Assembly (NCBI GenBank): GCA_947589095.1
Contig: CANQBX010000011.1
Location: 1 to 64,000 of the forward strand
Length of the DNA stretch: 64,000 nt
Reading direction: 5' to 3'
Source of the DNA: an uncultured Lachnospiraceae bacterium
GTDB lineage: Bacteria; Bacillota; Clostridia; Lachnospirales; Lachnospiraceae
The notes under the pieces are model-generated. The model saw only the letters and a list, made by a program, of their open reading frames with translations, did no database searches and was not told the origin of the DNA. The position numbers were made by a program, and so were the translations under genes. The first letter of the stretch is position 1. Every line of letters begins with the position of its first letter. This document shows, piece by piece, positions 8,386-26,307 of the stretch.

Positions 8386-8401
8386 CCGCAATTCGATTTC
8401 A

Positions 8402-10141: not shown

Positions 10142-10172
10142 GTCTGTTTCCTCCTGCAATAAAGTTGTGGTG

Positions 10173-10278: not shown

Positions 10279-11478
10279 TTAAAAATGGATCATCACTCCA
10301 TCGCGGCCAAGCCGCTCCTGAAGCTTTGAAATGCGGATCTCATGAAGCGTTTTTCCTTCCTTCACTGCCATGGCAGCAGCAGTTCCAGCGGCCTGTCCGG
10401 TCAGTACTGCCGGCGGGATCACCCTCGTGATCTCCCAGGCATCGCCGGCGGAAGAAATGCAGCGCCCCGCTGTAATCACATTTTTAAGCCTTCCGGTAAT
10501 AAGGCAGCGGTACGGGATCTCATAGGACGGCCCGACCCTTCTCCACTCGCAGACGCTTCCCACAGAATCATCGAAATGCCTGCCCGCGTCCTGCCCGCAC
10601 AGCGTATATTCTCCTTCCAGACGGTATGTGGTGCGTGTCTGAGCCATGCCGGGGATCGTAGTCACCGCGTGGGTAGTATGATCCAGGTCCCGGATCCCGT
10701 CAAGAACACACCTGCGGCCGCGAAGGATAAACTGTGTAATGTCTCTGGCATCATGCAGAACCATTTTCGGATAAGCCGGATGCTCTTTGTACAGTCCGTC
10801 TCCCCAGCTTGTCAGATTGATCCCGGTCATCACCCTGTTTTTACCTGCAGCTTCCGCCATATGTTCCGTGTCCGCCGTGTAGCACCAGTAGGAGACCCAG
10901 TTGTCTCCCTCGGCTGCAGACGCGCCCGCACGCCGCATCAGATCGCAGTCTCCGGTGGCGTCCACGAACATCCTTGCCGTATATGCCCTGCGGCCGCCCT
11001 TTTCCTCCACGACGACCGCCCGGCAGGTGTCCTGCTCCATCACAGGCACGGAAAATACCGTATCGAACACGAAATCGATTTTCTCAGCCTCCAGAAGCTC
11101 ATCGATCGCCATCACAAACTCTGCCGGTGAAAACCGCGTCCGATACCTCTGCGTACCGTCAATATGATCAGGCCTGCTCTTCCACGCATCCGGCAGTGTA
11201 TTATAGCTGTAGCGGATCGCCAGATGCAAAAGCTCCTCCGAGATCCCGCCGATGATCCTGCGTCCTTTGCCGTCGCAGATCGGATGATATTCCGTGACCA
11301 GCCCTAACGTCGCCAGACCTCCCATCATCACGCTCTTCTCAAGGATCAGGACGCGGCTGCCGCATCTGGCCGCTGCCAGAGCCGCGCCGATTCCCGCCAC
11401 TCCGCCGCCGACAACGATTACATCATACTCACCGGCGATTTCAATCTGCTCCTCCGGGATCCGGATCGTCTTCTCCAT
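10279..11478 (-). CDS. FAD-dependent oxidoreductase (FAD_oxidored type)
   Basis: A 399-residue flavoprotein. The N-terminal dinucleotide-binding motif is YDVIVVGGGVAGIGAALAAA (residues 18-37). The Gly-rich segment MMGGLATLGLVTEYH and FVDATGDCDLMRRAGA (around 190-205) are typical of the PF12831 group, and the C-terminal FAD segment ITAGRCISSAGDAWEITRVI lies near 340-360. Related genes occur in polysaccharide loci with no settled reaction; oxidation or reduction of a sugar or aglycone is possible. Lies 42 bp downstream of the GH5-like gene in the same direction. Confidence 0.88.
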   Translation of the reverse strand: MEKTIRIPEEQIEIAGEYDVIVVGGGVAGIGAALAAARCGSRVLILEKSVMMGGLATLGLVTEYHPICDGKGRRIIGGISEELLHLAIRYSYNTLPDAWKSRPDHIDGTQRYRTRFSPAEFVMAIDELLEAEKIDFVFDTVFSVPVMEQDTCRAVVVEEKGGRRAYTARMFVDATGDCDLMRRAGASAAEGDNWVSYWCYTADTEHMAEAAGKNRVMTGINLTSWGDGLYKEHPAYPKMVLHDARDITQFILRGRRCVLDGIRDLDHTTHAVTTIPGMAQTRTTYRLEGEYTLCGQDAGRHFDDSVGSVCEWRRVGPSYEIPYRCLITGRLKNVITAGRCISSAGDAWEITRVIPPAVLTGQAAGTAAAMAVKEGKTLHEIRISKLQERLGRDGVMIHF

Positions 11479-11520
11479 AACCAGTCTCTCCTTCTCATCT
11501 CATAGGATGCGGCGTTCGGT

Positions 11521-12615
11521 TCACACCCTTTCATCCGCCAGACGGCACAGCTGTCCGATCAGTTCGATCTCCTGCGGATCATAAGGTCTTAAGCTGGGCC
11601 TATACAGGTCATGGAACCAGACCGTAAAATCCAGATCCCTTGCACCGCCCCGGTCATAAGCCTCCCACATGGATTCCCAGGGCTCATAGGTCTGGGAGAG
11701 TCCTGCAACCAGCCCCCAGTTAAAGCAGCCTACCTTCTCCAGGAAAAACAGAGGGAACAGTTCCTGAATCGTATTCTTCCGTATCCTTGCCAGCCACTCT
11801 GTATTGATGACAGGCCGGCCGAATGCTTTCAGTTTATGGAGAATCTTTACGTTCTCAAGATAAGAGTTATAATTATGATAACTCACAAGATCCGAATTTT
11901 CCAGTACAAATTGCTCCACCTCCGCCAGCTTCTGCGCCGGATCGCCGTTAATCCGCCATGCCGCGGATGTAATGGGCTGAATCGGATTGACCTCCCGCCC
12001 GATCTCATAAAACCGTTTCAGATGCGGCATCGTCAGTTCGTTCCGTCTGGCATTGCCCGGCTCGTTATACAGATCCCATATCAGCACGCGCTCGTCCGAG
12101 CGGTAGGCCTGCATGATCTCGCCGACCCAGCGGTAGACCTTCTTCGCTTCCTCCGGATCGTCCAGCCAGCTGTAGCCCGGCTCTGTGTTAAGCGAACTGT
12201 GCTGCGACCGTTTACGGCCCCCGTGATATCCCAGATCATATTTCTGCGGCCCCAGCCGCTGGTTCAGAACACACCAGGGACTGTCCTTCGGCGTCATACA
12301 GTCATTTCCCAGCGTGATCACCGCCCTGAGACCGTGCCGGTAGGCCGTATCCAGATATCGGTCCAGCCGCTTCATGAATCCGTCCCTGTCTTCCCGCCAG
12401 ACAATATACTCCATAATCAGACGGACGGCGTTAAAGCCGGTATCCGCCGCCAGCTTAAGCTCCCTGTCCGCGGTGGCAAGCCGCTTTTCAAAGCCGTCCT
12501 TCTGCCACTGGTCGATCCGGTTCGCACAGTCGCTGCCCAGATAGTTACAGCCGCGAATCCACGGCTCCTTGTCGTACCAATCCCAGACCCGTTCCTTTGT
12601 CCACTGCCTCTCCAT
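11521..12615 (-). CDS. GH5-like (cellulase-superfamily) glycoside hydrolase
   Basis: A 364-residue TIM-barrel hydrolase of clan GH-A. The acid/base Glu185 lies in LIWDLYNEPGN and the likely nucleophile Glu273 in RPVINTEWLAR. RLIMEYIVWRE and LVSYHNYNS carry other barrel-strand residues. No signal peptide, so it acts inside the cell on imported oligosaccharides. ATG 12615 is preceded by AAAGGCGGGGA. In-frame codons upstream to 12693 overlap the esterase gene and look non-coding. The exact family (GH5, GH39 or unclassified) cannot be set here. Confidence 0.85.
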   Translation of the reverse strand: MERQWTKERVWDWYDKEPWIRGCNYLGSDCANRIDQWQKDGFEKRLATADRELKLAADTGFNAVRLIMEYIVWREDRDGFMKRLDRYLDTAYRHGLRAVITLGNDCMTPKDSPWCVLNQRLGPQKYDLGYHGGRKRSQHSSLNTEPGYSWLDDPEEAKKVYRWVGEIMQAYRSDERVLIWDLYNEPGNARRNELTMPHLKRFYEIGREVNPIQPITSAAWRINGDPAQKLAEVEQFVLENSDLVSYHNYNSYLENVKILHKLKAFGRPVINTEWLARIRKNTIQELFPLFFLEKVGCFNWGLVAGLSQTYEPWESMWEAYDRGGARDLDFTVWFHDLYRPSLRPYDPQEIELIGQLCRLADERV

Positions 12616-12640
12616 ATTCGTCCCCGCCTTTCCGCCGCTT

Positions 12641-13351
12641 TTACGGCATACTGACCACGTTCTGGTCTTCCTCCAGTTCCTTATACTTTTCATAATACCG
12701 CCGTCCGAATTCCCTGAGAGACGCCGCGTTGATATGGAGATGATCCGGATTGGGCGTCAGGCCTTCCGCCGGTACATACCGGCACCGCGGCAGGGTCTTT
12801 TCGACCCACAAAAGCGCTTCATTAATATGCGGATAATTTCTCGCTATATCTTCTCTCGGGAAATCCGCCAGATAGTCGCCAAGACCGCCAACCAGTACCG
12901 GCAGCTCCGTCTGCCCAAGCTCCTGACGGAGCGCGCGAAACATCTGCAGACATTTCTCCCCATAAACGGGATACCGGTCCGACGCCGTATCCGCCTCCCC
13001 CTGGTGCCACAGGATTCCCGCAAGTTCGGAAGTCCTCTGCGCCAGACGGCACTGCATCACCGCGTGATCAAAAAGCAGTTCTCCGGGCATCCATTGATAA
13101 ATCGCCGTGGCGCTGTCCGCACAGGGAATCAAGCCGATGTAGTCCTCATGATCCGCAGTCCAGGCATCGGCAAAGCTCTCCGCCAGGTTGATGCCGGCCG
13201 TCTTTCTGTCCGGATTGATCGGTACAAACATCGGCTGCCACCGGCCGTTGCGCAGCACGCGGATTCTGTCATTGACAATCGGTTCTACTTCCTCCGGGCG
13301 GCCCCTGCCTCCCATATTTGACTGTCCGATCAGTAAAAATGAATGTATCAT
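12641..13351 (-). CDS. Sialate O-acetylesterase-like SGNH hydrolase (SASA domain)
   Basis: A 236-residue SGNH/GDSL-type esterase. The nucleophile is Ser11 in LLIGQSNMGGRG, the oxyanion Gly/Asn segment follows, and GILWHQGEADTAS (about 112-124) is the SASA family signature. HLHIN near residue 210 probably supplies the catalytic His. These enzymes remove acetyl groups from carbohydrates such as acetylated xylan, mannan or sialic acids. No signal peptide, so deacetylation would follow import. 13 bp downstream of the permease gene. Confidence 0.9.
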   Translation of the reverse strand: MIHSFLLIGQSNMGGRGRPEEVEPIVNDRIRVLRNGRWQPMFVPINPDRKTAGINLAESFADAWTADHEDYIGLIPCADSATAIYQWMPGELLFDHAVMQCRLAQRTSELAGILWHQGEADTASDRYPVYGEKCLQMFRALRQELGQTELPVLVGGLGDYLADFPREDIARNYPHINEALLWVEKTLPRCRYVPAEGLTPNPDHLHINAASLREFGRRYYEKYKELEEDQNVVSMP

Positions 13352-13364
13352 CGCTGTCCACCTC

Positions 13365-14264
13365 TTATCCTTTCACGCCGCCGAGTTTGATCCCTTTTAC
13401 GAAATATTTCTGCAGGAACGGATATACGCACAGGATCGGAATGACGGCTATGATGATCTGGGCGCATTTTAAAGTATCATCTGTCAGAAGATCCAGAAGC
13501 GCCATATCGCCTGTGCTGAACTGGGATGCTTCATTAACGATCACGACGTTGCGCAGATAGGTCTGTAACGGCAGCTTCTCCGGCGACCGCATATAAAGCA
13601 TTCCGGAAAACCATGAATTCCAATGGCCTACCATACAGAACAGGGATATTGTTGCTATGGCCGGCTTCGAAAGGGGCGCGAAAACCATAGTAAGAATTTT
13701 TATCGGCCCGGCGCCGTCTACTCGGGCCGCGTCCTCCAGTTCAACCGGAATCTCCCGAAAGAAATTGATCATCAGAACCAGATTGAAAATTGGAAGTCCG
13801 CCCGGCAGAAACAGCGCCAGAATGTTATCCCGCAGTCCCAGACTGTTAATCAGAATGTAATTGGGGATCAGGCCGCCGCCTACCAGCATGGTCACAAAAA
13901 AGTACCAGGCGTATAAAGTGCGTCCCTTCAGACGGTCGTTACTCTTCGAAAGCGGATAAGCCGTCAAAAGCAGCATAACCAGATTTAACAGCGTTCCAAA
14001 GAAGGTAACCTTCACCGTCATAAAAAAGGCGTTCCAGAAGGCTTTGTTCTGCAAAAGATACTGATAGGCGGCTGTTGTAAAGCCTCTCGGCCACAGCCAG
14101 ACCTTTCGCGACATCACATAGTTTTTGCTGCTCAGCGATACCGACAGCGTATATAGGAACGGCAGCGCGCAGCTTAACATAAGGATTGTCAAAATAATCA
14201 GATTACACACGTTAAATACTTTACGGGACGTAGATGTCCTTATTCCTGTTTTCGGTTTCTTCAT
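13365..14264 (-). CDS. Carbohydrate ABC transporter permease (LplC/MalG type)
   Basis: A 299-residue inner permease of a CUT1 importer, with six predicted helices and the EAA loop ELEDAARVDGAGPIKIL that contacts the ATPase. GAAAGGAGCGCAGAAT before ATG 14264 fixes the start (an in-frame codon at 14300 overlaps the upstream permease). No ATPase gene is in the locus; a shared MsmK-like ATPase encoded elsewhere is expected for this importer type. Confidence 0.93.
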   Translation of the reverse strand: MKKPKTGIRTSTSRKVFNVCNLIILTILMLSCALPFLYTLSVSLSSKNYVMSRKVWLWPRGFTTAAYQYLLQNKAFWNAFFMTVKVTFFGTLLNLVMLLLTAYPLSKSNDRLKGRTLYAWYFFVTMLVGGGLIPNYILINSLGLRDNILALFLPGGLPIFNLVLMINFFREIPVELEDAARVDGAGPIKILTMVFAPLSKPAIATISLFCMVGHWNSWFSGMLYMRSPEKLPLQTYLRNVVIVNEASQFSTGDMALLDLLTDDTLKCAQIIIAVIPILCVYPFLQKYFVKGIKLGGVKG

Positions 14265-14280
14265 ATTCTGCGCTCCTTTC

Positions 14281-15210
14281 CTAGAACAGCTTATAATCAA
14301 AGAATTTATTGGCTATATAGTAAGAAAGCGAGATTAAAACCGTGGAGATTGCAGACTTAAAAAGCCCTGCTGCCGCAGCCGCCCCATACATTGCTCTCTG
14401 CAGACCCAGACGGTATACCAATGTATCAATGATATCTCCGGTTTCATAAACAGAAGTATTATACAGATTGTAGATCTGATCGAAACCGGCATTCAAAAAG
14501 TCATCCATTCTCAGCACCATCATCAGAATAATCAGGGCCCTCAGACCAGGAAGCGTAACATGCCAAAGCTGCCGGAGACGTCCTGCGCCATCGATCGAAG
14601 CAGCGTCATAAAGTTCCGGATCGATCGAAGTAATGGATGCCAGATATACAACGGTACCGTAGCCGAAATTCTTCCATATACTGCTTACGATCATCGTCCC
14701 CCTGAAATACCGGTTATCACCCAGGAAATAAATTGGCTGTACCCCGATAAATTCCAATATCCGGTTTACAATTCCGGTAGAAGGCGAAAGAATGTTCAGC
14801 AATATGGAACTCATGATAATCCATGATATAAAATGCGGAAAATAAATCACCGTCTGAATGACCCTTTTGTATTTCAGGTTTATCATCTCGTTCAGAAGCA
14901 ACGCGACTACAATAGGGGTGATCAGGCCTAAAACTACCTTCCAGCCGGCAATAATCACCGTATTTTTTAAGACACTCGGAAAATTAGGCAATTTGAACAG
15001 ATATTCAAAATTACCCAGACCAATCCATTCCTGGTTTCCGAAAAGTCCCTTCGCCACCTTGAAATCCTGAAAAGCAATAATGATTCCACCCAGAGGAATA
15101 TAGTGGAAAATAAAGATCAGAAGCACGCCGGGCAGAAGCATAAGATGAAGGGGCAGTTCCCTCTTTATTCTCCGCATGCTCGTGTTGCTAACAACCTTTT
15201 CTTTTTTCAA
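14281..15210 (-). CDS. Carbohydrate ABC transporter permease (LplB type)
   Basis: A 309-residue partner permease. The N-terminal helix (LPLHLMLLPGVLLIFIFHYI) precedes the LplB signature GGIIIAFQDFKVAKG. The EAA loop ELYDAASIDGAGRLRQLWHV appears near residue 210. It lies 100 bp after the binding-protein gene and 16 bp before the second permease. Confidence 0.93.
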   Translation of the reverse strand: MKKEKVVSNTSMRRIKRELPLHLMLLPGVLLIFIFHYIPLGGIIIAFQDFKVAKGLFGNQEWIGLGNFEYLFKLPNFPSVLKNTVIIAGWKVVLGLITPIVVALLLNEMINLKYKRVIQTVIYFPHFISWIIMSSILLNILSPSTGIVNRILEFIGVQPIYFLGDNRYFRGTMIVSSIWKNFGYGTVVYLASITSIDPELYDAASIDGAGRLRQLWHVTLPGLRALIILMMVLRMDDFLNAGFDQIYNLYNTSVYETGDIIDTLVYRLGLQRAMYGAAAAAGLFKSAISTVLISLSYYIANKFFDYKLF

Positions 15211-15310
15211 AGTCTTTCACCTCTGTCTTTCTGAAAGAAAACACATCGTACCTGCACCCGAAAGCAGCATACGCCTTTCCCAGGTACAGGTACGATAACC
15301 GCCAGATTAA

Positions 15311-17197
15311 TTATTTCGCGTTCTGTGCGCACCAGTCCCGCACTTCCTGAGTAATCTCGTTGCCATGCATGTTGTCCCAGAAATCAAGCCACTGCGCAAA
15401 GCCTTCGTCGGCGCTTACCTCCCCGTTAATAATGCTCTTGAATATCACCGATTTCTGATCCATAAGTGTCGTCCAGTAATCATTCATTAGCTTTGTATTT
15501 GGCCCGGTAAAGGAAGCCCAGAACAGATTACCACTGTCCTTCTGCTGCGCAATAATTGCATGAGCGGAATTATCCTGAGGTCCGAACATTTTAACCCAAC
15601 GGTAACCATCGTTCTCATCATGCATCATTCTGTAATGGGCAACGCCGCCGCCATGGAGCAGGGATGTATCTTCGCCGTTATCGTAGCACTCTTTCACATT
15701 CAAATAAATGTCCAGATTGCCGAATGCCGATCCATAACATCCTACAGGGCTGAAATTCCACGAAACCTCATCGTCATACGCCCACCATTCTACATAATCG
15801 GCGCTGTTATACATAATATGGTCGATCACGTTGAGCATCTTAAACACAAGCTCCGGATGTTCGAAATCTTTATTGACAACAATATATCCTACATTATACG
15901 GGGCTAATATGCTCTTCACCGGACTTCCCGTGGCCGACGGAAGCGGAACGCAGATCCAGTCTGCATTCGGATCCGACTCATGGCAGGTCTCCACCCATTT
16001 TCCAAGAGAATGATTGTAATAACGCATTCCTGCAGTACCATCGGCAACCTTTGCGTTCGCATCCGCAGCAGATGTGGTAATATACTCCGGATCAATGTAC
16101 CCCTTCTTGTACCACTCAGCCAGCTTTGCCAGCGCGTTTTTCGTAGCCTCCGTAGTACCGCCATAGACGATCTCGCCGTTCGCATCCTCATGCCATTCGT
16201 TCGGATAAGATCCATAAGCCGCATATAGTCCCTTAAAGGCGGACGATGTATCCGAATTTACCGCAAATCCCCATGTGTCGTCCACACCGTTTCCATCCGG
16301 ATCTTTTGTCATAAAAGCATCTATCACAGTTTCCAGCTCATCGACCGTGGTCGGCGCTTCCATCCCCAGGTTTTTCAGCCAGTCTGACCGTATCCACAAA
16401 AGAGACAGGTTATTGGTTGCCGATGTGGCGCAGGGAATTGCAAAGATCTTCCCATCCATCGTTGTTTCCCGCAGCGCAGCCCCATCGTCCGACGCCATAT
16501 TCGCCTTCACCTGAGCACTGGCATATTCATCTATATAACCTGACATATCTGCCAGCAGCCCTTCTTCAGCTAACGCCATCAGATCCGACTGGCTCGAAAC
16601 AATAAAGATATCCGGCAAATCCAAGGCGGCCATATCCAGACTTAACTGGGTGGAATAATCCGATGACGGCCTCATGCTCATATTGATATCCACATTGAAC
16701 AAACGCTTATACAGATCTTCCCAGCGGTTATAACTGTATGATTCCCCATATTTTTCCTCATAACCTGCCATGCCTGTTTCCATTGATGTAGAATAGTACC
16801 GCATCATATCAACTGTGACAGGCTCATCATAACCGGTCAGAAGTTCTGTTTCCCCATTCGCCTCGAACACATCAAACAGTTCATCGATCAGTCCGTCCAT
16901 TTGTTCCGTATACTTTTCCGCAGCGGTACCGCTCGGCGTAAACACCGGCTCATACGTCACTCTCCCGGCAGCCTGCGCCTGCGTTTCCTGACCGGCAGTC
17001 TCCGCTGTACCCGCAGCAGCCTGGGCCGTCGTTTCCGCGCTGGTCTGGGCGGTCTGCGCGGCGGCCGTAGTGCCCTCCGTCGCGGAACTGCCTCCGCTCC
17101 CGCTTCCGCAGCCTGCTGCCGTGACGGTCATAACAGCCGCCAGACCGACTGCCAGCCATCTGGATATCTGCTTCTTGGTTGCAATCTTCTTTTCCAT
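15311..17197 (-). CDS. Extracellular solute-binding lipoprotein (LplA type)
   Basis: A 628-residue lipoprotein: signal peptide with lipobox VTAAGC (Cys30), a Ser/Thr/Ala/Gln-rich linker to about residue 75, then a large family 1 binding domain. It should capture an oligosaccharide at the cell surface and pass it to the two permeases encoded downstream. Its length (over 500 residues) is typical of LplA-like proteins, which often bind larger glycans. AAAGGAGGAGAAGGTAC precedes ATG 17197. Confidence 0.92.
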   Translation of the reverse strand: MEKKIATKKQISRWLAVGLAAVMTVTAAGCGSGSGGSSATEGTTAAAQTAQTSAETTAQAAAGTAETAGQETQAQAAGRVTYEPVFTPSGTAAEKYTEQMDGLIDELFDVFEANGETELLTGYDEPVTVDMMRYYSTSMETGMAGYEEKYGESYSYNRWEDLYKRLFNVDINMSMRPSSDYSTQLSLDMAALDLPDIFIVSSQSDLMALAEEGLLADMSGYIDEYASAQVKANMASDDGAALRETTMDGKIFAIPCATSATNNLSLLWIRSDWLKNLGMEAPTTVDELETVIDAFMTKDPDGNGVDDTWGFAVNSDTSSAFKGLYAAYGSYPNEWHEDANGEIVYGGTTEATKNALAKLAEWYKKGYIDPEYITTSAADANAKVADGTAGMRYYNHSLGKWVETCHESDPNADWICVPLPSATGSPVKSILAPYNVGYIVVNKDFEHPELVFKMLNVIDHIMYNSADYVEWWAYDDEVSWNFSPVGCYGSAFGNLDIYLNVKECYDNGEDTSLLHGGGVAHYRMMHDENDGYRWVKMFGPQDNSAHAIIAQQKDSGNLFWASFTGPNTKLMNDYWTTLMDQKSVIFKSIINGEVSADEGFAQWLDFWDNMHGNEITQEVRDWCAQNAK

Positions 17198-17233
17198 GTA
17201 CCTTCTCCTCCTTTGGTTGTAATTGCCTCGTTC

Positions 17234-20200
17234 TTATATGACTCCCAGCTTCTCCAGGATCGTCACCAATGGGTTGTCCGGATCGATCTCCTTAAGCGCC
17301 CGCTTCTCGCCCTCGAAAGCTGCCGTCTTCCTGAGTCCCCTCCATGCCAGCATCCGCAGCAGATACGCTTTTATAAGATTGTTCCTGCGAATGTCGCTCT
17401 CAAACGGAAGCGGGGTTTCCATTCCCACGCCAAAGTACCCGTACCGTTCCGGATTCGCGGCATATTCTTCGCCTGCCGCCAGCAGCATCTGATAATAATG
17501 CTCCGCCGTGTCCTGATGTCCCAGCTTTTCCTCGCACAGCCCGGTGAAGAACAGGATCTCGTTTACCAGCTTCGGCTCCTGCGCCGCTTTCCGGTAAGCG
17601 TTCTCCGCCTCCTGCGGATGTCCAAGCTTCTCTTCCAGCTGTCCGGCCAGATAATGGACGTTGGCGTCCTGTTCCAGATAGCCCTTGCCCTCGCCGTAGC
17701 TCAGCGGATAGATCAGGGCATCCGTCAGCTTTTCCTGCGCCTCTTTGTATCTTCCTCCTTTCATAGCCTCCCACGCCTCCAGTACAGAAAGCCACCGGTG
17801 GTATTTGGTCAGCTTGCCTTCCCCGCCCTCATAGATATGAAAACTCTTCGCCAGCAGCATCCGGCGGGCGCGGTCATATTCACCGTTCTGTATCCGCAGG
17901 ATCGCCGCGTCCAGCCAGGCGTCGTCACGGTCAAAGACCTGCTTCTCGTACCGTTCGGTCGTTTCGATCCGCTGATCAAGCGGCAGACGTTCCGCCTTCT
18001 CGATCTGCATCAGCTCGTAGATCAGCCTCGGATCCTCCGGATTTAAGGAAACCGCTTTTCTCATATAGGGAAGCGCCTTCTCTGTCTGTCCGAGATGATC
18101 GTAACAGGCAAGCGCCAGGTTGCGCCAGGTATATCCGTAAGCGTCGTTCATGCGCAGGGATCGCTCCCAGGCAGCCGCGGCCGCCTCATAGTTCTCCTTG
18201 TCATAGTACAGGCAGCCGAGCATATACCGGGCTCTCCAGCCGCCGTTCTTCAGAACCGCGATATCTTCAAGACGGTTCGGGAGATATTCATGCAATGGCG
18301 CCAGACCGGCCGCTGCCGCATCCTCTGCCTTCGTCCGTTCTGCGTTTTCCGCCGCTTCCGCGCCGTCCGGCATATCCGCGCCGCTTCCCGCATCCCGGCT
18401 GTCAGACATTTTCCGGCTGCGCAGCGCTTCCCTGTGATACCACAGATTCCAGGACGGCTTTGTGCAGCTGTTCAGAATGGTTTCCGCTTCTCCGTAAAGC
18501 CCGGCCTTCTCAAACAACAGCGCCGCGTCGAGCACATATTCCGGATTTCCGGTTACAAATTCCTCCACCGGCCTTCCGCCCAGAAGGCAAAGCGCATAGC
18601 GGGCGGAGCCGTCCAGCGGGAATTCTGTCAGAATCTTTTCAAGCATCTTTCGGTCGTCGGTCAGATATCCCAGAAGCGTCCGCGCCCCGAAGAATCCGGC
18701 GTTGACCGAGACAGCTTCCTTAAGCTTCCGAATGGCCTGCTTCCGGTCCCCTTCCGCGCAATCGATGCACGCGCTCTCGAAATATCCCACGGCGCGGAAC
18801 GGATACTGCCAGGCAGCAGCCCTGAAATATCCATAGGCTTCCTTTCGCCGTCCCGTCAGCCGCATAAGACGCCCCATCTGGTAATAGCTCTCCGCGTCCT
18901 CCGGGCTTGTATCCTCGAACGCGATCCGTTCCAATGCTTTCCGCAGATAAACCTCTGCTTCATGGAAACGTCCCTTTTCCATCTCCAGTTTGCCCATTTC
19001 CAGGTTGCAGCGGTAATCACCGGGCTCCCGGCGCAGGGCTTCCGTGTAATAGTCCTCCGGCCGGTACGTGCCGTGCTTATACTGGGCCAGATGCCTCCCA
19101 TATATGTAGAGCATGTCAATGGATTCCACATCCTCTGGCTCAGGCGCCCGTTTTCTCGGCTTCGGCGGAAGCTTCTTTCCCTTCTCCGGGATCCGGTAGG
19201 CGACCAGTACGCGACCTTCCCCGCCGTCCGCAGCATCCGTCAGGCTGAGAACCAGAGACCCGGCCGGCACGCCGTCCGGAATCCTAACTTCCTCCAGCCA
19301 GAATTCTTCCGGCTTAAGCGCCCCATTCTTCTCCCACAGAACCTTTCCATCCGACGCAAGCGTAAGCTTCAAACCATTGCGGCAGGATGTCACCGCCGCG
19401 CCCAGCCGCCATACGCCTTCGCCTTCCGCAGGCGCCAGAAGGATCGCTCCCTCGGTACTGGCGTTGGAGATATCGCCGAGACCGTTTACCGGATACCAGT
19501 AATTCGAAAATTCCTTCGTCTCTCCTGGTTCGATGTAAGCGAAATCCGGCTGATTGTCCGTATAGCTGCCGGTCATCAGCTCCATGTAATGGTCGCCGTT
19601 GTCTGTCAGGTTGGCGCACCATTTTTCGCCGAATTCTCCCGCGCCCCAGGTGAACATCTTCGCTCCCGGCGACTCATGGTGGTCGTGGATCATGACCGTC
19701 CCCGCGCCGCGGGAATAATCATAGCCGCCCAGAAAATCCATATCCGTCCAGCCTCTGGGGATCATCAGGGACGTGGGAACCTTCACATTGCCGAACCAGG
19801 TCGTATCCGTGCCGTCCCCGTAGTCATAAGGCCTGGCCGTCTCAAATACTCCCTTCATCACCGGAAATGAGATGATCGCCCGGCGGTCATGGTCAGAGCC
19901 GAATTCAATATCCGGCGGGAATATGGCCTTATACTGGTTGTGGACCCGTACCGCCGTATTATTCCACCACATGAACGGCAGCGCTCTGTCCGTACAGTTT
20001 GTGACGATTCCTTTCGCCTCTACTACCGTGCTGTCGGGACGGACCGTCACGGCCACCATTCCGCGCATATGTTTAAGCGGTTCCAGTTCCCCCATGAAGC
20101 AGGTCACCGATCCGTCCGGATTCTCCTGCAGCTTATACTCCATAGGCATGTAAGTCGTGGGCCTGTGGTGCTGGGGCCAGTTAAACTCCACGCCTCCAGA

Positions 20201-20548
20201 TACCCATGGCCCGCACAGGCCGATCAGCGCGGGTTTGACTACCGGATTCTCATAGATGAATTCATAGCCGTTACTTTTGGCCACGGCTCCGTAGATCTTC
20301 CCGCCGATCTCCGGCAGCAGATGCACCGCAATCAGGTCGTTTTCCAGATAAACCATATCGTATTCCCGGTCTTCCGTCTCATCCAGGATCTGATCGATCA
20401 CCGGAAGCGGATAAACCTTTCCGCAGGCGCCCTGATACTGCTTCTTCTCGATAAAATGGGGCGCCTTATTTCCTTTGCCTGTTTTATACGTTTTCAGCTT
20501 CACCTTTTCGCTGTGTATCCGTGCCTTCATATTCTGATTTGTCCTCAT
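17234..20548 (-). CDS. DUF5107 domain protein with C-terminal TPR array
   Basis: A 1104-residue protein with no signal peptide. Residues 1 to about 450 form the DUF5107 region, a mutarotase-like beta-sandwich probably binding carbohydrate (ALIGLCGPWVSGGVEFNWPQ, FMWWNNTAVRVHNQYKAIFP, GYDYSRGAGTVMIHDHHESP). From about 470 onward there are many tetratricopeptide repeats (for instance CNLEMGKLEMEKGRFHEAEV and YTWRNLALACYDHLGQTEKA). The family recurs in glycan loci but its chemistry is unsettled. TAAGGAAAG before ATG 20548 supports the start. It heads its own transcript, from the promoter at 20628-20656, followed by the importer genes. Confidence 0.88.
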   Translation of the reverse strand: MRTNQNMKARIHSEKVKLKTYKTGKGNKAPHFIEKKQYQGACGKVYPLPVIDQILDETEDREYDMVYLENDLIAVHLLPEIGGKIYGAVAKSNGYEFIYENPVVKPALIGLCGPWVSGGVEFNWPQHHRPTTYMPMEYKLQENPDGSVTCFMGELEPLKHMRGMVAVTVRPDSTVVEAKGIVTNCTDRALPFMWWNNTAVRVHNQYKAIFPPDIEFGSDHDRRAIISFPVMKGVFETARPYDYGDGTDTTWFGNVKVPTSLMIPRGWTDMDFLGGYDYSRGAGTVMIHDHHESPGAKMFTWGAGEFGEKWCANLTDNGDHYMELMTGSYTDNQPDFAYIEPGETKEFSNYWYPVNGLGDISNASTEGAILLAPAEGEGVWRLGAAVTSCRNGLKLTLASDGKVLWEKNGALKPEEFWLEEVRIPDGVPAGSLVLSLTDAADGGEGRVLVAYRIPEKGKKLPPKPRKRAPEPEDVESIDMLYIYGRHLAQYKHGTYRPEDYYTEALRREPGDYRCNLEMGKLEMEKGRFHEAEVYLRKALERIAFEDTSPEDAESYYQMGRLMRLTGRRKEAYGYFRAAAWQYPFRAVGYFESACIDCAEGDRKQAIRKLKEAVSVNAGFFGARTLLGYLTDDRKMLEKILTEFPLDGSARYALCLLGGRPVEEFVTGNPEYVLDAALLFEKAGLYGEAETILNSCTKPSWNLWYHREALRSRKMSDSRDAGSGADMPDGAEAAENAERTKAEDAAAAGLAPLHEYLPNRLEDIAVLKNGGWRARYMLGCLYYDKENYEAAAAAWERSLRMNDAYGYTWRNLALACYDHLGQTEKALPYMRKAVSLNPEDPRLIYELMQIEKAERLPLDQRIETTERYEKQVFDRDDAWLDAAILRIQNGEYDRARRMLLAKSFHIYEGGEGKLTKYHRWLSVLEAWEAMKGGRYKEAQEKLTDALIYPLSYGEGKGYLEQDANVHYLAGQLEEKLGHPQEAENAYRKAAQEPKLVNEILFFTGLCEEKLGHQDTAEHYYQMLLAAGEEYAANPERYGYFGVGMETPLPFESDIRRNNLIKAYLLRMLAWRGLRKTAAFEGEKRALKEIDPDNPLVTILEKLGVI

Positions 20549-20627
20549 TCTTTCCTTAATTTCTGCAATTTATATGATTGTGCTGATTATTGGATATTTT
20601 GCGGTGTCTCTCATTAATTCTGCTTCT

Positions 20628-20656
20628 ATTTTACAGTTCTGTCTTTTTAATTAACA
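20628..20656 (-). promoter_or_regulatory. Promoter of the DUF5107-importer transcript
   Basis: A poor -35 TGTTAA (20656-20651), 17-bp spacer and -10 TAAAAT (20633-20628) on the minus strand. Seven bases upstream of the -35 is the dyad at 20664-20687. The design is the same as for the GH43 promoter. Confidence 0.6.
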
Positions 20657-20663
20657 GGCGAAT

Positions 20664-20687
20664 ATTTTCGGATTTTTTCCGAAAAAT
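20664..20687. promoter_or_regulatory. Dyad (candidate activator site) upstream of DUF5107 promoter
   Basis: Two 9-bp arms, ATTTTCGGA (20664-20672) and TCCGAAAAT, around a 5-T spacer; the extra A in the right-hand run allows one base of slack. A copy with one mismatch per arm lies at the same distance from the GH43 promoter (26308-26331). Confidence 0.55.
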
Positions 20688-21647
20688 TTAGTCGTTATCT
20701 TTTATTATGACCGGCAGATTCCAGACAGGCCGGATGCGAAACGGCCGGGCATACTGCCTTTTTATCGCCCCTTTTTCCTCCAGGTGCGCGTAACACGCCC
20801 GGTCGCAGGCCCGCCCGCAGATGCAGGCCACATAGCCGTGCTTGATGGGAGGATAAAAATACGTCTCCTCCATGATCGCCTCTGCCTTCTCAAAATCAAA
20901 CCGGGCCACGCCCTCCGCGATCTCCCTGCGGTCTTCAAAGTTCTCATAAGCCTCCGGCGGCATAAACGGATTGGTATGCATACCTGCTCCCCGGTAATAT
21001 ACGGCGCACCGTACCGCATCCGGCCCGCCCTCTTCCTTCATCGCATGGCCCGGACAGGCCCGGACACATGCTCCGCAGCGGTCGCAGAGATGCGGCTTGA
21101 CCGGCTCATCCGGCTCGATCTCCGCATCCGTCAGAACAAACGCATACCGCTGGAACGGTCCGAAATCATCCGTCAGCAAAGCGCCTGACATCCCGATCTC
21201 TCCCAGTCCGCAGGCAGCGGCGGCGGCGGTAAAATCCATCTGCGGTTCCCTTTCTCCGGCCCGATACCAGCGGGTATGCAGCATTTCCGGATTCGGAACC
21301 TCCCTTTGGGGACGCAGAAGCTGGTTCCGGCGCTGAGGCACGGCAAGGTATCCTTCGTCCTCCAGACAGGCGCAGAGCTTCAGAAGCGCTCCCGGCATCA
21401 GCGCCTCCTCGATCGTCTCCACGCCGGTCGTCGTATACTGGTAATAGGTCGTTCCTTCTTCCACTCCCCGGTAGGAGCCGCGGAGTACGCGGAAAGCGAT
21501 GCCTATGACCGTTCTGGTTCCGGGGAATATTTCCGTAACCGCATCGTCACGGAAACGATCGACGCTCCCGATCCCGACCAGATCCGCGCCGGCCCCGCGC
21601 GCGCAGTCAATGATCTTTTTCCGGAGAATCCGGCTATCTGTCTTCAA
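20688..21647 (-). CDS. QueG/reductive-dehalogenase-like 4Fe-4S protein (copy 3 of 3)
   Basis: A 319-residue iron-sulfur protein related to epoxyqueuosine reductase and reductive dehalogenases, which bind cobalamin and 4Fe-4S clusters. The N-terminal GADLVGIGSVDRF is the family opening. Residues 188-198 hold a full cluster motif, CDRCGACVRAC followed by PG, and Cys275, 277, 281 and 285 (CICGRACDRAC) form a second Cys group. About 60 residues shorter than QueG, without its HEAT-like tail. The start is a TTG with AAAGGAGG 9 bp upstream, and it overlaps the previous gene by 14 bp, so translation is coupled. The substrate is unknown. Confidence 0.82.
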   Translation of the reverse strand: MKTDSRILRKKIIDCARGAGADLVGIGSVDRFRDDAVTEIFPGTRTVIGIAFRVLRGSYRGVEEGTTYYQYTTTGVETIEEALMPGALLKLCACLEDEGYLAVPQRRNQLLRPQREVPNPEMLHTRWYRAGEREPQMDFTAAAAACGLGEIGMSGALLTDDFGPFQRYAFVLTDAEIEPDEPVKPHLCDRCGACVRACPGHAMKEEGGPDAVRCAVYYRGAGMHTNPFMPPEAYENFEDRREIAEGVARFDFEKAEAIMEETYFYPPIKHGYVACICGRACDRACYAHLEEKGAIKRQYARPFRIRPVWNLPVIIKDND

Positions 21648-22545
21648 GCAGACCCACCTCCTTTAAATGCGCATAGCACGCCGTTTCACAGGCTCTGCCG
21701 CAGAGACACGGCGCATAGCCGCAGAACTCCGGCAGAAAATCCAGCTCCGGGTAGATCTGTCTGGCGCTTTTCGCGTCAAAACGATACCTTCCTTTCAGGA
21801 TCTCCTCCCGGCGGGGATCGTCCTTCAGAAACTCCTCCGTCATAAACGGATTGCTCTCATGGGCGCCGCGATAGTACACGCTGCACTGCCAGGTGTCTTT
21901 CCCCTCCGCGCCGATGGCATGTCCCGGACAGGCATGTTCGCACATCCCGCAGCCGTCGCAAAGCTCTCGGTTAAAGGGAGAATCACAGGCAAGCGGAGCG
22001 TCTGTAACAATAAACACAAACCGGACATACGGCCCGAATTCCGGCGTCAGAATCGCTCCTGATCTGCCCTTTGCGCCGAGACCGCAGATCCTGGCTGCCT
22101 GAGCGAAATCGAGGATCACATCCGGAGCGGGCTTTCCCGGCTCCACCGGTTCGGCATATATAAGTTCATAGGTATCGGTCAGCTCCGGATTCTGGCTCTT
22201 GTCCCCTTTGATGCGCAGGTTGGACACATTCCGCTGCACGCACGCGTCGTACCCTTCATCCTCGATAAAGGCGGCGATCCGCAGCAGAAAGATCTCCGCC
22301 AGCTCTTCATCATAATATTTGACTCCCAGCGGCACATAATTGATAAACTGCGTCCGGTCACGCATACAGTTGTAAAGCCCGCGCGGCACTCGGAAGCCGG
22401 CGCCGATTACGCACCTGCCCTCCGGAAGGATCCGGCGCGGATCACGCTGAGGGGCGGTCCCCTCAAACAGCGCAATATCGCCGATCCCGCACAGATCCGC
22501 CCCAAGTTCGCGGCATTTCCTCTTGACGCTCTCAGCCGTAAGCAT
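21634..22545 (-). CDS. QueG/reductive-dehalogenase-like 4Fe-4S protein (copy 2 of 3)
   Basis: A 303-residue paralogue of its neighbours. The opening LGADLCGIGDIALFEG, the cluster motif CDGCGMCEHACPG (Cys196, 199, 202, 206) and the C-terminal CLCGRACETAC (Cys282, 286, 290, with Cys280 before) line up with copy 3. GGAGGAAG precedes ATG 22545. It lies 17 bp after copy 1. Three consecutive paralogues suggest different substrates or a multi-subunit complex; neither is shown by the sequence. Confidence 0.82.
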   Translation of the reverse strand: MLTAESVKRKCRELGADLCGIGDIALFEGTAPQRDPRRILPEGRCVIGAGFRVPRGLYNCMRDRTQFINYVPLGVKYYDEELAEIFLLRIAAFIEDEGYDACVQRNVSNLRIKGDKSQNPELTDTYELIYAEPVEPGKPAPDVILDFAQAARICGLGAKGRSGAILTPEFGPYVRFVFIVTDAPLACDSPFNRELCDGCGMCEHACPGHAIGAEGKDTWQCSVYYRGAHESNPFMTEEFLKDDPRREEILKGRYRFDAKSARQIYPELDFLPEFCGYAPCLCGRACETACYAHLKEVGLLEDR

Positions 22546-22562
22546 CGTCTCTTCCTCCTCTC

Positions 22563-23648
22563 TCAGCGGTCCAGGCGCCAGGGCTTTCTGGTTCTGAGCG
22601 GCCGGTTAAAGCGTCCTTCCATACATCCGCCCTTTTTCTCCAGCATGCTGACACAGGCCCGGATGCAGCCGCCGCATTTCGCCATATTATATCCCACCCA
22701 GGTGGGAAAATAATCCTCCAGAGCCGTATAGACCCGCATGATCTGGGCCTCATCCGCCTTAGCCTTTCCCTCCAGGACATCCAGATCGCCGTTCTCGTTG
22801 CGGTCGAATACCTCCTTAGGAACAAAGGGATTATAGTATCTGCCCGCATGCGTATAGAAAGCGTAGCATTTCCACATATCGATATCGCCCCATTCGCACA
22901 GCTTACTGCCGCCGAGAAGAACGGATATCTTTTTCCCGCTTCGGATATCCGGGATGCACTGACCCGGACATTCCCGCACGCACGCCATACATCTTCTGCA
23001 CAGGGGCGGTCCGGAATACATCTCGTCGTATTCCAGTTCCGCATCCGTAAACAGAAACGCCACCCTTTGTAGCGGCCCGAACTGCGGGGTCAGAAGCATT
23101 TTACTCCAACCGATCTCTCCCAGGCCGCACGCCACTGCCGCCAGACGGAAATGGAACTGCAGATCAGGCGCCACGCCGCCTTCCCTCGCCGGGCGTGTAA
23201 ACTGCACAGAACGGTGATGAGCCGCCTTCGTCTCTGCCTGTCTGGAAACATTGATCTGCTCTTCCGGAGATAATGTATTGCCGGGAGAGCCGTCCATATC
23301 AGAAATACTTCCCCTGGCGCCGGTATTGCGGTATACCATCGCCTCATAGCCCGCGTCCTCGATCAGGCGGCCCACCTGGTAGAGCACGGCCGGAGCGTAT
23401 ATTTCATTAATACCGCCGTATGCCATGGACGGATACTGGTAAAACTGAGTCCCTTCCTCAATTCCCCGCTGTACGCCGCGGGGAATCCGAAAGGCCAGAC
23501 CGACCACGCTCTTCGCCTCCGGGAACAGATATCGCGGATCCATGTCCCTGGGCGCTCCTTCAAAGCGGTCCATACTGCCGATACCGCACAGATCCGCGCC
23601 GGCGGCCAGGGCCGCCTCCTTGATCATGGCGCTGGTAAGCGTCTTCAT
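22563..23648 (-). CDS. QueG/reductive-dehalogenase-like 4Fe-4S protein (copy 1 of 3)
   Basis: A 361-residue paralogue with the same opening (GADLCGIGSMDRFEG) and cluster motif CRRCMACVRECPG, but a divergent end: the second Cys group is reduced to AKCGGCIRAC, and about 30 extra residues (IRSGKKISVLLGGSKLCEWG) follow the first cluster. GGAGGAGG before ATG 23648 fixes the start; the frame is open further upstream but overlaps the U32-like gene. Confidence 0.82.
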   Translation of the reverse strand: MKTLTSAMIKEAALAAGADLCGIGSMDRFEGAPRDMDPRYLFPEAKSVVGLAFRIPRGVQRGIEEGTQFYQYPSMAYGGINEIYAPAVLYQVGRLIEDAGYEAMVYRNTGARGSISDMDGSPGNTLSPEEQINVSRQAETKAAHHRSVQFTRPAREGGVAPDLQFHFRLAAVACGLGEIGWSKMLLTPQFGPLQRVAFLFTDAELEYDEMYSGPPLCRRCMACVRECPGQCIPDIRSGKKISVLLGGSKLCEWGDIDMWKCYAFYTHAGRYYNPFVPKEVFDRNENGDLDVLEGKAKADEAQIMRVYTALEDYFPTWVGYNMAKCGGCIRACVSMLEKKGGCMEGRFNRPLRTRKPWRLDR

Positions 23649-23670
23649 AACCGTTATTCCTCCTCCATGT

Positions 23671-24696
23671 TCATTCTTCCAGAAAGACTGCCGCACCTTC
23701 AAAGGCGTCCCGGCAATATGTGCAGGGCGCCCGGCCGCATACCTGCCCGCAGCCCGCGACTCGTTCCCCGAAATCCGCCGGCAGCTTTCCATTCTCGATC
23801 ACAAGCGGATAGAGTTCCCCGGCATAATCAGGTTCCAGAAGATCCAGCAGATTCCCGGCATAGGTTCCCCGGGCATAGGCGCGCAGTACCCGTTCCGGAG
23901 CGGGATTCACGCGGGTCGCCAGCTTCATGGCGGACGTCACTTCCTCATAAAGTCCCGTATCCTCCGGCCGTACAAAACTCAGGCGGCGCAAAAGGACGCT
24001 TTTATCCTTCTCCCGCCGCAGATAATCCCTGCAGATGCCGTGGAAGACCACGGCGTTGTCCATCTGCATGATCCCGCGCTCATGCGCCACCAGATTGTCA
24101 TGGAACTGCCGCGCCGGGCAGAAATTCAGGCATCCGCTGTTGGCCAGAAGAAAGCATTTCTTCCCATGCTCCCGGCACCATGCGGACAGCTTCCGAAGCG
24201 CCGGCAGATTCCGGTTCCACTCCCGTCTGATATAGAAGCTGTCGAAATCGCCGCCCAGATACTCCATCGCCTCCACGGTTCCGATCTCCATATTGACGGA
24301 AGCCCTCACCTCCAGCCGCGGGAAATTCTCCTTTACCAGATGGGCCAGAACCGGCGAAGTGGTCGTGACCGAACGTAAACCGAAACGCCCGGCCACCTCG
24401 TCCACGGTTTCGCAGACCTCCGTAAAAAAGCTGCGTGCCAGGCTCCTTTCTCCGTAACAGCCGCCGTTCAGCAGCAGATTAAAAGACAGTCCGGCCCGGC
24501 TGAGGACCTCCAGATCCGCTTCCATGCATCGCCTGGCTTCCCAGGCGGTAAGATGACGGTGGACGTCGCCAGTATGGCGGCCATTCGGCATATCGCCCCA
24601 GGAAAAATAGACCTCCTGGATCTGATCCTTCCGCTGAAGAATCTCCTGCATGAACCGGTCCGATTCCGTAAGCTGATACCCAACAAGCCATTTCAT
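23671..24696 (-). CDS. U32 peptidase-like iron-sulfur protein
   Basis: A 341-residue protein with features of the U32 family (UbiU/UbiV, TrhP and related), whose studied members bind a 4Fe-4S cluster and often do tRNA or quinone hydroxylation rather than proteolysis. Visible: LLLNGGCYGE (first Cys, about residue 79), ASVNMEIGTVEAMEYLG (barrel segment), FLLANSGCLNFCPARQFHDN (Cys pair), a lone Cys in VVFHGICRDY and a C-terminal GCGQVCGRAPCTYC. The clustered Cys residues and the three iron-sulfur genes next door support a redox role. Assignment to U32 is by motif only. Confidence 0.65.
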   Translation of the reverse strand: MKWLVGYQLTESDRFMQEILQRKDQIQEVYFSWGDMPNGRHTGDVHRHLTAWEARRCMEADLEVLSRAGLSFNLLLNGGCYGERSLARSFFTEVCETVDEVAGRFGLRSVTTTSPVLAHLVKENFPRLEVRASVNMEIGTVEAMEYLGGDFDSFYIRREWNRNLPALRKLSAWCREHGKKCFLLANSGCLNFCPARQFHDNLVAHERGIMQMDNAVVFHGICRDYLRREKDKSVLLRRLSFVRPEDTGLYEEVTSAMKLATRVNPAPERVLRAYARGTYAGNLLDLLEPDYAGELYPLVIENGKLPADFGERVAGCGQVCGRAPCTYCRDAFEGAAVFLEE

Positions 24697-24727
24697 CCGT
24701 TCACTCCATCCTCCCGCTTATGCGCCG

Positions 24728-26215
24728 TCACGTTTCCTGCTCCGTCTTCGGGATCAATCCCTTTTGCGGAGTCCCGGTCGGTCCGTGTACGACAAGGACG
24801 TCGATTCCTTCCTCTGTCTCCACAAATTTCATCGGATCATAACAGATATAGCGCGGCGATATCTCCGTCGGGCTGAAATGCTGATGATAGAACATAATAT
24901 ACCGGCCGTCCGCCGTCTTTGTATATACGGAATCCCCTGTCCCCCGCGTAAAGCCGGTTGAACGCAGGATCGGGTTATAGCGGTATTTCCTGTACGGTCC
25001 TAAAGGATGCTCCGCAACGGCAAATCCTTCCGCGTAGCTGCCCTTATAATGAGAACCCGCGTACATCATATAATAAAGCCCCTTATGCTTTATGATCACT
25101 CCGCCTTCGACAATACGCGCATAATCACACTCCCATTCCTCCGTCGGCACCAGAAGCTTTGTGATCGTATCGTCAAGAGGCGTGATGATCCCGTCCTCAA
25201 GCTTCACCTCATAGGCCCAGATCTCATTGCCTTTATTGAAACGGACGACCGACAGGTACGTTCTTCCGTCGTCATCCACAAACGGATGTCCGCAGATCTC
25301 CTGAAAATCCTCGTGCAGCGGCTTCATGGTCTTAGAACGGAACGGCCCTAACGGCGACGTACTCGAGGCGAACGCAACCTGTACTCTGCGCCTGCCTGTT
25401 TCATCCGGGGCCGTATGGGAAGCGTAAGTCATATAGAACAGACCGTCCTTATAGAACACATTGGGGCTCATATATTCATTGTCGCCCCAGCCGTCCGTCC
25501 CGTGGAAAACCACCGTCGGTTCCGCCCAATGGATCAGATCCTTCGACGTATAGCACTGGAAAAGGGACATATCCTGCGTATCCGTGAAGTACAGGTAGTA
25601 GGTCCCGTTCCAGTACAGGATGTCCGGATCCGCTCCATAGATCACGGGATTGCGGTAACAGCTGTCCCTGTCATAAACCGGCGCTTCTTCCAGCTCCGTA
25701 AGCGTTACGCCGCGGAATTCCGCCGCGCCCTCGCCGAATTCCAGTCCCACGGTTCCTCTCGGAAAATGCCGAAGCTCCAGATCGAACTTCGGATAGGGAT
25801 CCGTCTCCTTCAAAAAGTTATTGAACCAGATCCGCGCGAAGGAGCCCTGCATTTCCACGCGAATCTTATACCAGCGGTTCTTCTCAAACGGATATCTCAT
25901 AGAGCCGAGCACGCTGTTGTTCCGGTCTCCTCCGTTTACCTTTGAGAGTTTCACCGTGCAGTCCGCCGCGTTCACGGACAGGCAGTAACCGGCGATCCAG
26001 GAAAAGCCGTTTTCCCCTTCTGCTCGGAAGTATACGCCCGCCTCGCCATCCCGCACCAGCCTGATCTCGCACTCGAACGCGAAATTGGCCGGCGCCCTGT
26101 CCCGTGAAAACAGCACCGCTCTGTCCTGCGCCGCGGAAAACAGCACATTCCCCGTATCCGCAGTCAGAACGCCGTCTTTTTCCGTTACTCCCGCGCCAAG
26201 CTGAATCCATTCCAT
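24728..26215 (-). CDS. Glycoside hydrolase family 43 with N-terminal beta-sandwich domain
   Basis: A 495-residue protein. Residues 1 to about 165 form a concanavalin-like sandwich (FAFECEIRLVRDGEAGVYFR, WYKIRVEMQGSFARIWFNN). Residues 175-495 form the GH43 five-blade propeller: base Asp in YGADPDILYWNGTYYLYFT, pKa Asp around CGHPFVDDDGRTYLS and acid Glu in RIVEGGVIIKHKGLYYMMYA. GH43 enzymes remove arabinose or xylose side groups. The sandwich is more often C-terminal in this family. AAAGGAGG before ATG 26215 fixes the start. First gene of the locus. Confidence 0.9.
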   Translation of the reverse strand: MEWIQLGAGVTEKDGVLTADTGNVLFSAAQDRAVLFSRDRAPANFAFECEIRLVRDGEAGVYFRAEGENGFSWIAGYCLSVNAADCTVKLSKVNGGDRNNSVLGSMRYPFEKNRWYKIRVEMQGSFARIWFNNFLKETDPYPKFDLELRHFPRGTVGLEFGEGAAEFRGVTLTELEEAPVYDRDSCYRNPVIYGADPDILYWNGTYYLYFTDTQDMSLFQCYTSKDLIHWAEPTVVFHGTDGWGDNEYMSPNVFYKDGLFYMTYASHTAPDETGRRRVQVAFASSTSPLGPFRSKTMKPLHEDFQEICGHPFVDDDGRTYLSVVRFNKGNEIWAYEVKLEDGIITPLDDTITKLLVPTEEWECDYARIVEGGVIIKHKGLYYMMYAGSHYKGSYAEGFAVAEHPLGPYRKYRYNPILRSTGFTRGTGDSVYTKTADGRYIMFYHQHFSPTEISPRYICYDPMKFVETEEGIDVLVVHGPTGTPQKGLIPKTEQET

Positions 26216-26300: not shown

Positions 26301-26307
26301 GACGAAG

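Follow-up and report, generated by a model that had tools for sequence, protein, structure and literature searches.

The stretch analysed here, hereafter the window, comprises 64,000 nucleotides from an uncultured Lachnospiraceae bacterium (GenBank assembly GCA_947589095.1, contig CANQBX010000011.1, positions 1 to 64,000), and our subject is a cassette of four of its genes, which encode a U32-like protein and three consecutive [4Fe-4S] paralogues called Q1, Q2 and Q3 (collectively Q). They lie on the - strand, within the first of two head-to-tail units. Unit 1, the redox transcription unit, starts with a glycoside hydrolase of family 43 (GH43; 24728..26215, PF04616, with PF06439 at its N-terminus), followed after 31 bases by the U32-like TIM-barrel protein of 341 aa (23671..24696), after 22 bases by Q1 (22563..23648) and after 17 bases by the second paralogue Q2 (21634..22545), which overlaps the third, Q3 (20688..21647), by 14 bases; the starts of GH43 and Q1 were set at inner ATGs. 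The N-terminal PF06439 domain of GH43 is 3-keto-disaccharide hydrolase-like.

The four genes recur together in other genomes. Peptide patterns of Q1, run against contigs, gave 195 encoding stretches, the best 80 of which were kept, so that these loci are selected for Q1 similarity; U32 is present in 77 of them, Q2 in 79 and Q3 in 76. The loci devoid of Q2 or Q3 (L031, L049, L058 and L067; loci are designated L and genomes G) end at that point, L082 is cut at the edge, and L029 and L040 have no U32 within the available flank. Gene order was established on 82 loci, i.e. these 80 plus L097 and L098, found via U32 (the Q1 of L097 is the same as that of L027). With a simple gene caller 71 of the 82 are complete; for the other 11 the contig is short or a gene was missed by the caller. 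The order U32-Q1-Q2-Q3 is kept in 70 of the 71 complete loci, the remaining one reading Q1-Q2-Q3-U32, which indicates that the arrangement is not due to chance; 21 of the 70 carry an extra gene in between (a small cupin, EamA or other), the place of the cupin being between Q1 and Q2. The initial annotation of this region had taken the iron-sulfur genes for one embedded module, and this holds: U32-Q1-Q2-Q3 is a real, conserved redox module built from known superfamilies, self-contained and probably regulated. We found no description of it in open-licence PMC papers.

According to the record titles the cassette is hosted by Clostridia, Oscillospiraceae, Lachnospiraceae, Lentisphaeria, Victivallales and Planctomycetia, mostly metagenome-assembled genomes from the ruminant gut. 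It is rare among the genomes sampled: Q1 is matched in 1 of 398 genomes of the phylum, that of the window itself, and close relatives of the U32-like protein occur in 3 of 299 genomes of the family, again including the window's own. A branch of the Q1 tree (support 95/82) separates the 13 Lentisphaerota rows from the rest, so that repeated transfer with Bacillota is not required; the Bacillota rows L032 and L066 branch beside them (99/98). Across the loci the mean identity is 82% for Q1 (81 sequences), 65% for Q2, 61% for Q3, 51% for U32 and 32% for AraC, a ranking that favours Q1 because the loci were picked by Q1. Twenty loci retrieved with a mixed Q profile show identities to the window of 73% on average for Q1 (minimum 31.5, maximum 81, paralogue-only hits included), 58% for Q2 (18 loci), 48% for U32 (14) and 42% for Q3 (10), so that the ranking of Q1 over U32 stands. 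The distances of the cassette genes correlate with each other (r 0.70-0.89, Mantel 0/300), and those of AraC, Gfo/Idh and DUF5696 also correlate with the cassette (r 0.51-0.88); the correlation thus reflects the common inheritance of the loci rather than protein contact.

Of 391 genomes of the class searched by profile, 29 have Q matches at E<=1e-40; the 23 that have the U32 subfamily at E<=1e-100 all belong to these 29 (Fisher P 6e-32, uncorrected for kinship). Twenty-three of the 26 U32 genes at the latter threshold have a Q match no further than 1 kb away; those away from Q are found in G1034 (C22), in G789 (one of its two) and in G1000 (C23). Six Q genomes have no U32 match (G701, G735, G755, G796, G818, G924), and six other genomes have distant U32 matches only (E 1e-34 to 1e-17) and no Q at E<=1e-15. 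Simpler forms exist. One Q accompanies U32 at L151, L152, L154 and L162, and Q stands at a contig end at L153; three of these five one-Q-type loci (L152, L153 and L162) have GH28 genes. Two Qs occur with no U32 nearby at L155-L160, next to an AraC-type gene in five of the six (one regulator scanned). In a quick tree, six subfamilies (Q1, Q2, Q3, B, C1 and C2) each occupy one side of a branch, with a support of 77 for Q2. Besides, L163 encodes (7336-9675) a protein of 779 aa, one region of which is Q-like (26% identical to Q1), beside an AraC-like gene, which could be a fused form; at L152 the second gene after Q-U32-cupin (13814-14704) looks metF-like by eye, and this may be chance.

Q1, Q2 and Q3 show Fer4 matches, and match the QueG and reductive dehalogenase (RdhA) models below the curated cut-offs: the best scores of the trio are 58.1 bits for TIGR02486 (reductive dehalogenase), against 160.35 (for Q2, 58 bits against 160), and 46 bits for TIGR00276 (QueG), against 200. 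Compared with the PDB, the Q profile matches PceA (8q4h, E 7.9e-18; 4uqu, E 3.4e-15), QueG (5d08, E 4.9e-16; 5d6s, E 1.8e-12) and NpRdhA (4ras, E 1.9e-8), and hhalign relates it to E. coli QueG with a probability of 97%, over the N-terminal part and the first ferredoxin part of QueG. For the AlphaFold2 model of Q1 (predicted local distance difference test, pLDDT, 84), every one of the 46 PDB matches with E<=0.001 is an RdhA or a QueG; next come the B12 proteins CblD and CblC/MMACHC. By fold and by profile, the trio described at first as QueG-like does belong to the RdhA/QueG superfamily.

All eight cluster cysteines are present in 234 of 234 Q1-Q3 rows. Ferredoxin-type motifs for two predicted [4Fe-4S] clusters are found after a predicted nitroreductase-like B12 domain, with fold matches at low template-modelling (TM) scores. 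The second cysteine group reads CxCxxxCxxxC in Q2 and Q3 and CxxCxxxC in Q1, a difference already noticed in the initial annotation, but the three paralogues keep all eight cysteines; Q1 alone has an insert of about 40 aa. Over 250 rows of the six subfamilies, filtered by length and some of them nearly identical, P43, Y72, E97, G191, R195 and seven cysteines are invariant, the eighth cysteine being missing from 6 of 6 C2 rows and from one B row. The position of D162, which by its spacing is close to PceA Asn272/QueG Asp130, holds D, E or N throughout. Passages of PMC4646009 align QueG Asp130 with PceA Asn272, make QueG Tyr101 the equivalent of RdhA Tyr246, and implicate Tyr246-Arg305 in proton transfer, Arg305 having no equivalent in QueG; a passage of PMC10463259 mentions a conserved Y-K/R dyad. 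In the HMMER alignment, with residue numbers counted by hand, R195 shares its column with PceA Arg305 and NpRdhA Lys488, where both QueG chains have Tyr.

Q thus resembles RdhA (PceA, NpRdhA) by its best PDB profile match, its fold, its two ferredoxin-type cluster motifs and this Arg/Lys active-site position; it differs by a score far under the TIGR02486 cut-off, by showing to the eye no conserved Tyr at the spacing of the catalytic one, and by its three paralogues with a U32 partner, often near sugar-type genes. The likeness to QueG lies in the 5d08 match and in the alignment of the N-terminal part. On the other hand, the DYH motif and the C-terminal HEAT-repeat domain, which define QueG as worded in part of PMC4646009, were not found in Q1-Q3 by alignment with E. 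coli QueG, and Arg replaces the QueG Tyr. The best reading of sequence and model is that Q forms an uncharacterised family within the RdhA/QueG superfamily, which might bind a corrinoid.

The U32-like protein has no Pfam match over the cut-off (PF01136 at E 0.2); five of five scanned relatives at 26-29% identity match PF01136. Aligned by hhalign with nine relatives it reaches 99.9%, and the five scanned among these nine match PF01136. Its AlphaFold2 model (pLDDT 92.6) has as top PDB match the U32 structure 5d88 (Mk0906; E 2.8e-9, TM 0.71 on the target and 0.53 on the query), the matches listed after it being to other enzymes with a TIM barrel, with E values of 1e-4 at best. The label of U32-like, given initially, is therefore appropriate. 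Cysteines C80, C189, C193 and C222 are invariant in the 48 sequences of alignment A4 and include a CX3C pair. The relatives' profile compared with UbiU by hhalign gives 75%, and the single-sequence hhalign of the U32 profile with UbiV and TrhP gave no signal. The protein is thus akin to the U32 oxidases (UbiU/UbiV, TrhP, RlhA) by the U32 TIM-barrel fold and by four conserved cysteines with a CX3C pair, and unlike them by its cysteine spacing, by the lack of a significant profile match to TrhP/UbiV and by its linkage to Q. It is a predicted member of the U32 fold which does not carry the oxidase motif. Some distant U32 relatives, in genomes of the same family, adjoin condensation/AMP-binding genes resembling non-ribosomal peptide synthetases, LuxE or O-methyltransferase genes (L102:6575-11413, L105:8923-11395, L106:8873-11005), as if U32 proteins also served small-molecule biosynthesis.

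Both units of the window are preceded by the same 34-bp block, a putative promoter/operator, located on the - strand at 26297..26330 upstream of GH43 and at 20653..20686 upstream of the first gene of unit 2, DUF5107; the latter site contains the inverted repeat TTTTCGGA-N5-TCCGAAAA. Aligned locally, the two upstream regions score 62, compared with a maximum of 39 in 2000 dinucleotide shuffles and of 33 in 350 other pairs of upstream regions from the window. A pattern derived from both sites, allowing up to three mismatches, occurs at two places only in the assembly (4.1 Mb, completeness 97.6%), and the reversed pattern, used as a control, at none; as both sites match by construction, the finding is that there is no third site. 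This points to one regulator for both units, and the redox unit is probably co-regulated with the importer/hydrolase unit. At least in the window, the iron-sulfur genes do not seem regulated apart from the glycan genes, separate regulation being what the initial annotation had named as a refutation. A candidate regulator is encoded at 7195..8310 on the + strand, convergent to unit 2: a periplasmic-binding-protein-like sensor (PF13377, E 5.8e-18) with a possible C-terminal helix-turn-helix (HTH), the HTH matches being under their cut-offs. For a LacI-type sensor, an HTH-like part (below cut-off) at the C-terminus is an unusual order. An orthologue of the AraC regulator of L017, sought in the window genome, was discarded, the 24 matches having a best E of 1.1e-12 and those seen being limited to the C-terminal HTH; a common operator was looked for by eye in seven upstream regions of relatives, and none was taken up.

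Unit 2, all on the - strand, encodes a DUF5107-TPR protein (17234..20548), an ATP-binding cassette (ABC) importer made of an extracellular solute-binding protein (15311..17197, PF01547, E 2.9e-19) and two PF00528 permeases (14281..15210 and 13365..14300), a carbohydrate esterase of the SASA family (12641..13351, PF03629, E 3.2e-45), a GH5-like enzyme (11521..12693, PF00150, E 8.4e-9), a flavin adenine dinucleotide (FAD)-dependent oxidoreductase (10279..11478, PF12831, E 2.9e-63) and a GH2 enzyme (8402..10159, PF02837 and PF02836). The two permeases are LplB-like and LplC-like, respectively. After GH2, the last gene, comes a terminator-like hairpin of 16 pairs (8353..8387, - strand) from a consensus scan whose total of 19 hits does not exceed that of shuffles (15.7, sd 4.5). 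Coordinates and family matches bear out that all the genes first named, from GH43 to GH2, stand on a single strand and in this order, GH2 falling just beyond the span then considered (10279..26215). Between the FAD gene and GH2 (10160-10278) we observe a palindrome, CCTAAC-TGGCT-GTTAGG. Anti-phage defence was considered and rejected: the trio, the U32-like and the DUF5107 proteins have no PADLOC match, and the FAD oxidoreductase has a weak one, to one desaturase model (E 1.8e-5), via its FAD-binding start.

The initial annotation also tied the iron-sulfur genes to the glycan genes, and on this point the other loci are divided. Conservation of the cassette does not extend to the window's hydrolases: over the 80 loci (E<=1e-8), GH43, SASA and DUF5107 are found in none, GH5 and GH2 in one each, and the importer genes in three. 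The FAD oxidoreductase, tried as a fixed partner, was discarded, a related gene being present in four of the 80 loci only (L035, L042, L057, L074). Other sugar-type genes do accompany the cassette: 42 of the 71 complete loci have one on the same strand within 350 bases, and 38 of 71 have a divergent AraC-type regulator upstream (Pfam confirmed three members). With families named from one scanned member each, these partners are Gfo/Idh (19), DUF5696 (13), GH63-like (3), GH116 (2), solute-binding-like (2, labelled by eye, one of them also with DUF5696) and, once each, C5-epimerase-like, GH3, AP_endonuc_2 and an aldose epimerase with ABC permease. As a control, the DUF5696 genes of 25 cassette genomes were located: of these 33 genes, 6 have a Q or U32 match no further than 10 kb away (G859, G694, G030, G051, G1034, G729), against 0.3-0.7 expected, a set not fully independent as G030 and G051 had been seen beforehand. 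Against this link, DUF5696 is not matched in 12 of the 25, and the window genome has five DUF5696 genes, none near its cassette. For GH28, 3 of 64 matches in the 25 genomes are within 10 kb of cassettes (P 0.02-0.17), which is suggestive; none of the four GH28 matches of the window genome is near its cassette. In the flanks (259 proteins of 120-900 aa, one per cluster, seven large clusters excluded; best 25 of 209 and of 169 families) no Pfam family exceeds 5 of 129 or 4 of 130 proteins, the commonest being AP_endonuc_2 and AraC-type HTH.

The reading we favour, tentatively, is that Q proteins are reductases of the class III B12/[4Fe-4S] type which act with their U32 partner on a glycan-derived compound, the module being probably co-expressed in the window with the importer and the hydrolases. 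The importer would bring in a trimmed oligosaccharide or glycoside; what follows import, we infer. The hydrolases would free a sugar or aglycone, sensed by the AraC-type regulator or, in the window, perhaps by one of the periplasmic-binding-protein type. Q1 would most likely be the catalytic subunit, passing low-potential electrons via two [4Fe-4S] clusters to a base-off corrinoid, R195 assisting in the active site like Arg305 of PceA or Lys488 of NpRdhA; Q2 and Q3 might be dedicated partner subunits forming a complex with it. The U32-like protein, as a [4Fe-4S] barrel, would act on the substrate of Q1 or prepare it. This substrate could be a sugar, a sugar acid or an aglycone that plant-type glycans yield in the cytoplasm. 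The reaction as a whole would be a reductive removal or rearrangement, making the compound fermentable or serving as an outlet for electrons. The main idea of the initial annotation, that the locus may import a decorated glycoside and reductively modify a sugar or aglycone, is partly supported, the reductive modification being conjectural. Still more tentatively, Q could stand next to RdhA and QueG as a new family of cobamide/[4Fe-4S] reductases of class III, which, with a U32-barrel partner, performs a B12-dependent reductive step on a plant cell-wall sugar or sugar-linked group in gut Clostridia, Lentisphaeria and Planctomycetia.

Several observations weigh against this proposal. Against RdhA/QueG the Q1 model reaches TM-scores of only 0.33-0.44 on the query; of the structural check suggested initially the fold came out clearly, at the superfamily level, and the corrinoid cavity did not. 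No conserved Tyr was found by eye at the linear spacing of the class III active-site Tyr, the invariant Y72 being a mere candidate; moreover, in a passage of PMC5500849 the proton donor is Tyr246 and not Arg305, which belongs to a ring around the cobalt. The cysteines of the U32-like protein do not show the CX6CX15CX3C spacing that part of PMC11574389 ascribes to U32 oxidases; TrhP has this motif; in UbiU and UbiV, too, a literal match is lacking. In 29 of the 71 complete loci there is no adjoining sugar-type gene on the same strand, and 11 of these 29 consist of the AraC gene and the four cassette genes with no same-strand neighbour. Finally, cobalamin riboswitches are found in 20 of 20 cassette genomes (19 over cut-off) and in 18 of 20 others (16 over); counting them as a sign of B12 dependence is uninformative, both groups being alike.

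An unlikely but serious alternative is that only iron-sulfur chemistry is involved: the U32-like protein would be the catalyst, for an oxygen-free hydroxylation, a dehydroxylation or an isomerisation of a sugar-derived compound, and Q1-Q3 its electron partners, with an RdhA/QueG fold devoid of corrinoid. The characterised U32 oxidases indeed hydroxylate without O2 and bind [Fe4S4], as described in part of PMC11574389; few parts of the Q family are as well conserved as the cluster cysteines, and no B12 gene was seen inside the cassette at the examined loci. At the opposite, the two-Q loci have no U32, and three of their genomes (G701, G735 and G818) have no U32 profile match at all (E<=1e-15), which indicates that Q can act without U32. 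Furthermore, the RdhA-type Arg is invariant although it is no cluster ligand, and Q1 is more conserved than U32, both in the loci picked by Q1 (82% versus 51%) and in the mixed-profile ones (73% versus 48%).

It is rather improbable that the module, by means of a corrinoid, removes O-methyl groups from methylated plant sugars or uronates, or cleaves another ether in them, the Co(I) of Q1 taking the methyl from a sugar held by U32. Pectin-type neighbours (GH88 in L023, GH28 in L095 and L152, rhamnosidases) and the metF-like gene, by eye, of L152 would fit with it; but among the best 25 flank families of each set given above no corrinoid methyltransferase or C1 family appears, apart from an RNA methyltransferase family (2 of 129). 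To our knowledge, class III enzymes reduce rather than transfer methyl. We give little credence to the idea that the cassette is a mobile passenger whose position among glycan genes is incidental. The window hydrolases rarely come with it, its nearest relative L017, with a Q1 90% identical, has a different GH43 nearby and a distant importer (24-37% identity), and many loci are without a same-strand sugar-type partner as indicated above; yet in the window the promoter block is common to both units and GH43 directly precedes the U32 gene within one unit, and DUF5696 is enriched near cassettes. A tRNA- or rRNA-modification module regulated with sugar genes by chance is very improbable, since it has for it the family resemblance alone (the QueG and U32 families include RNA-modifying enzymes), and against it the missing DYH motif and HEAT domain and the rarity of a module often linked to AraC and often beside sugar-type genes.

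We come back to the proposal of a reductive module acting on glycan-derived compounds. In the terms of a passage of PMC10463259, class III B12 enzymes are the dehalogenases and QueG, and the authors of a QueG structure considered, in a passage of PMC4646009, that further families may exist without a recognisable B12 motif. The module offers a defined candidate for such a family: its partner is conserved, its presumed active site bears a signature, its minimal form has two genes and its context is regulated, which renders the question testable. If the proposal is true, B12-dependent chemistry would join plant glycan breakdown in the rumen and hindgut, and U32 proteins would gain a role outside RNA and quinone modification.

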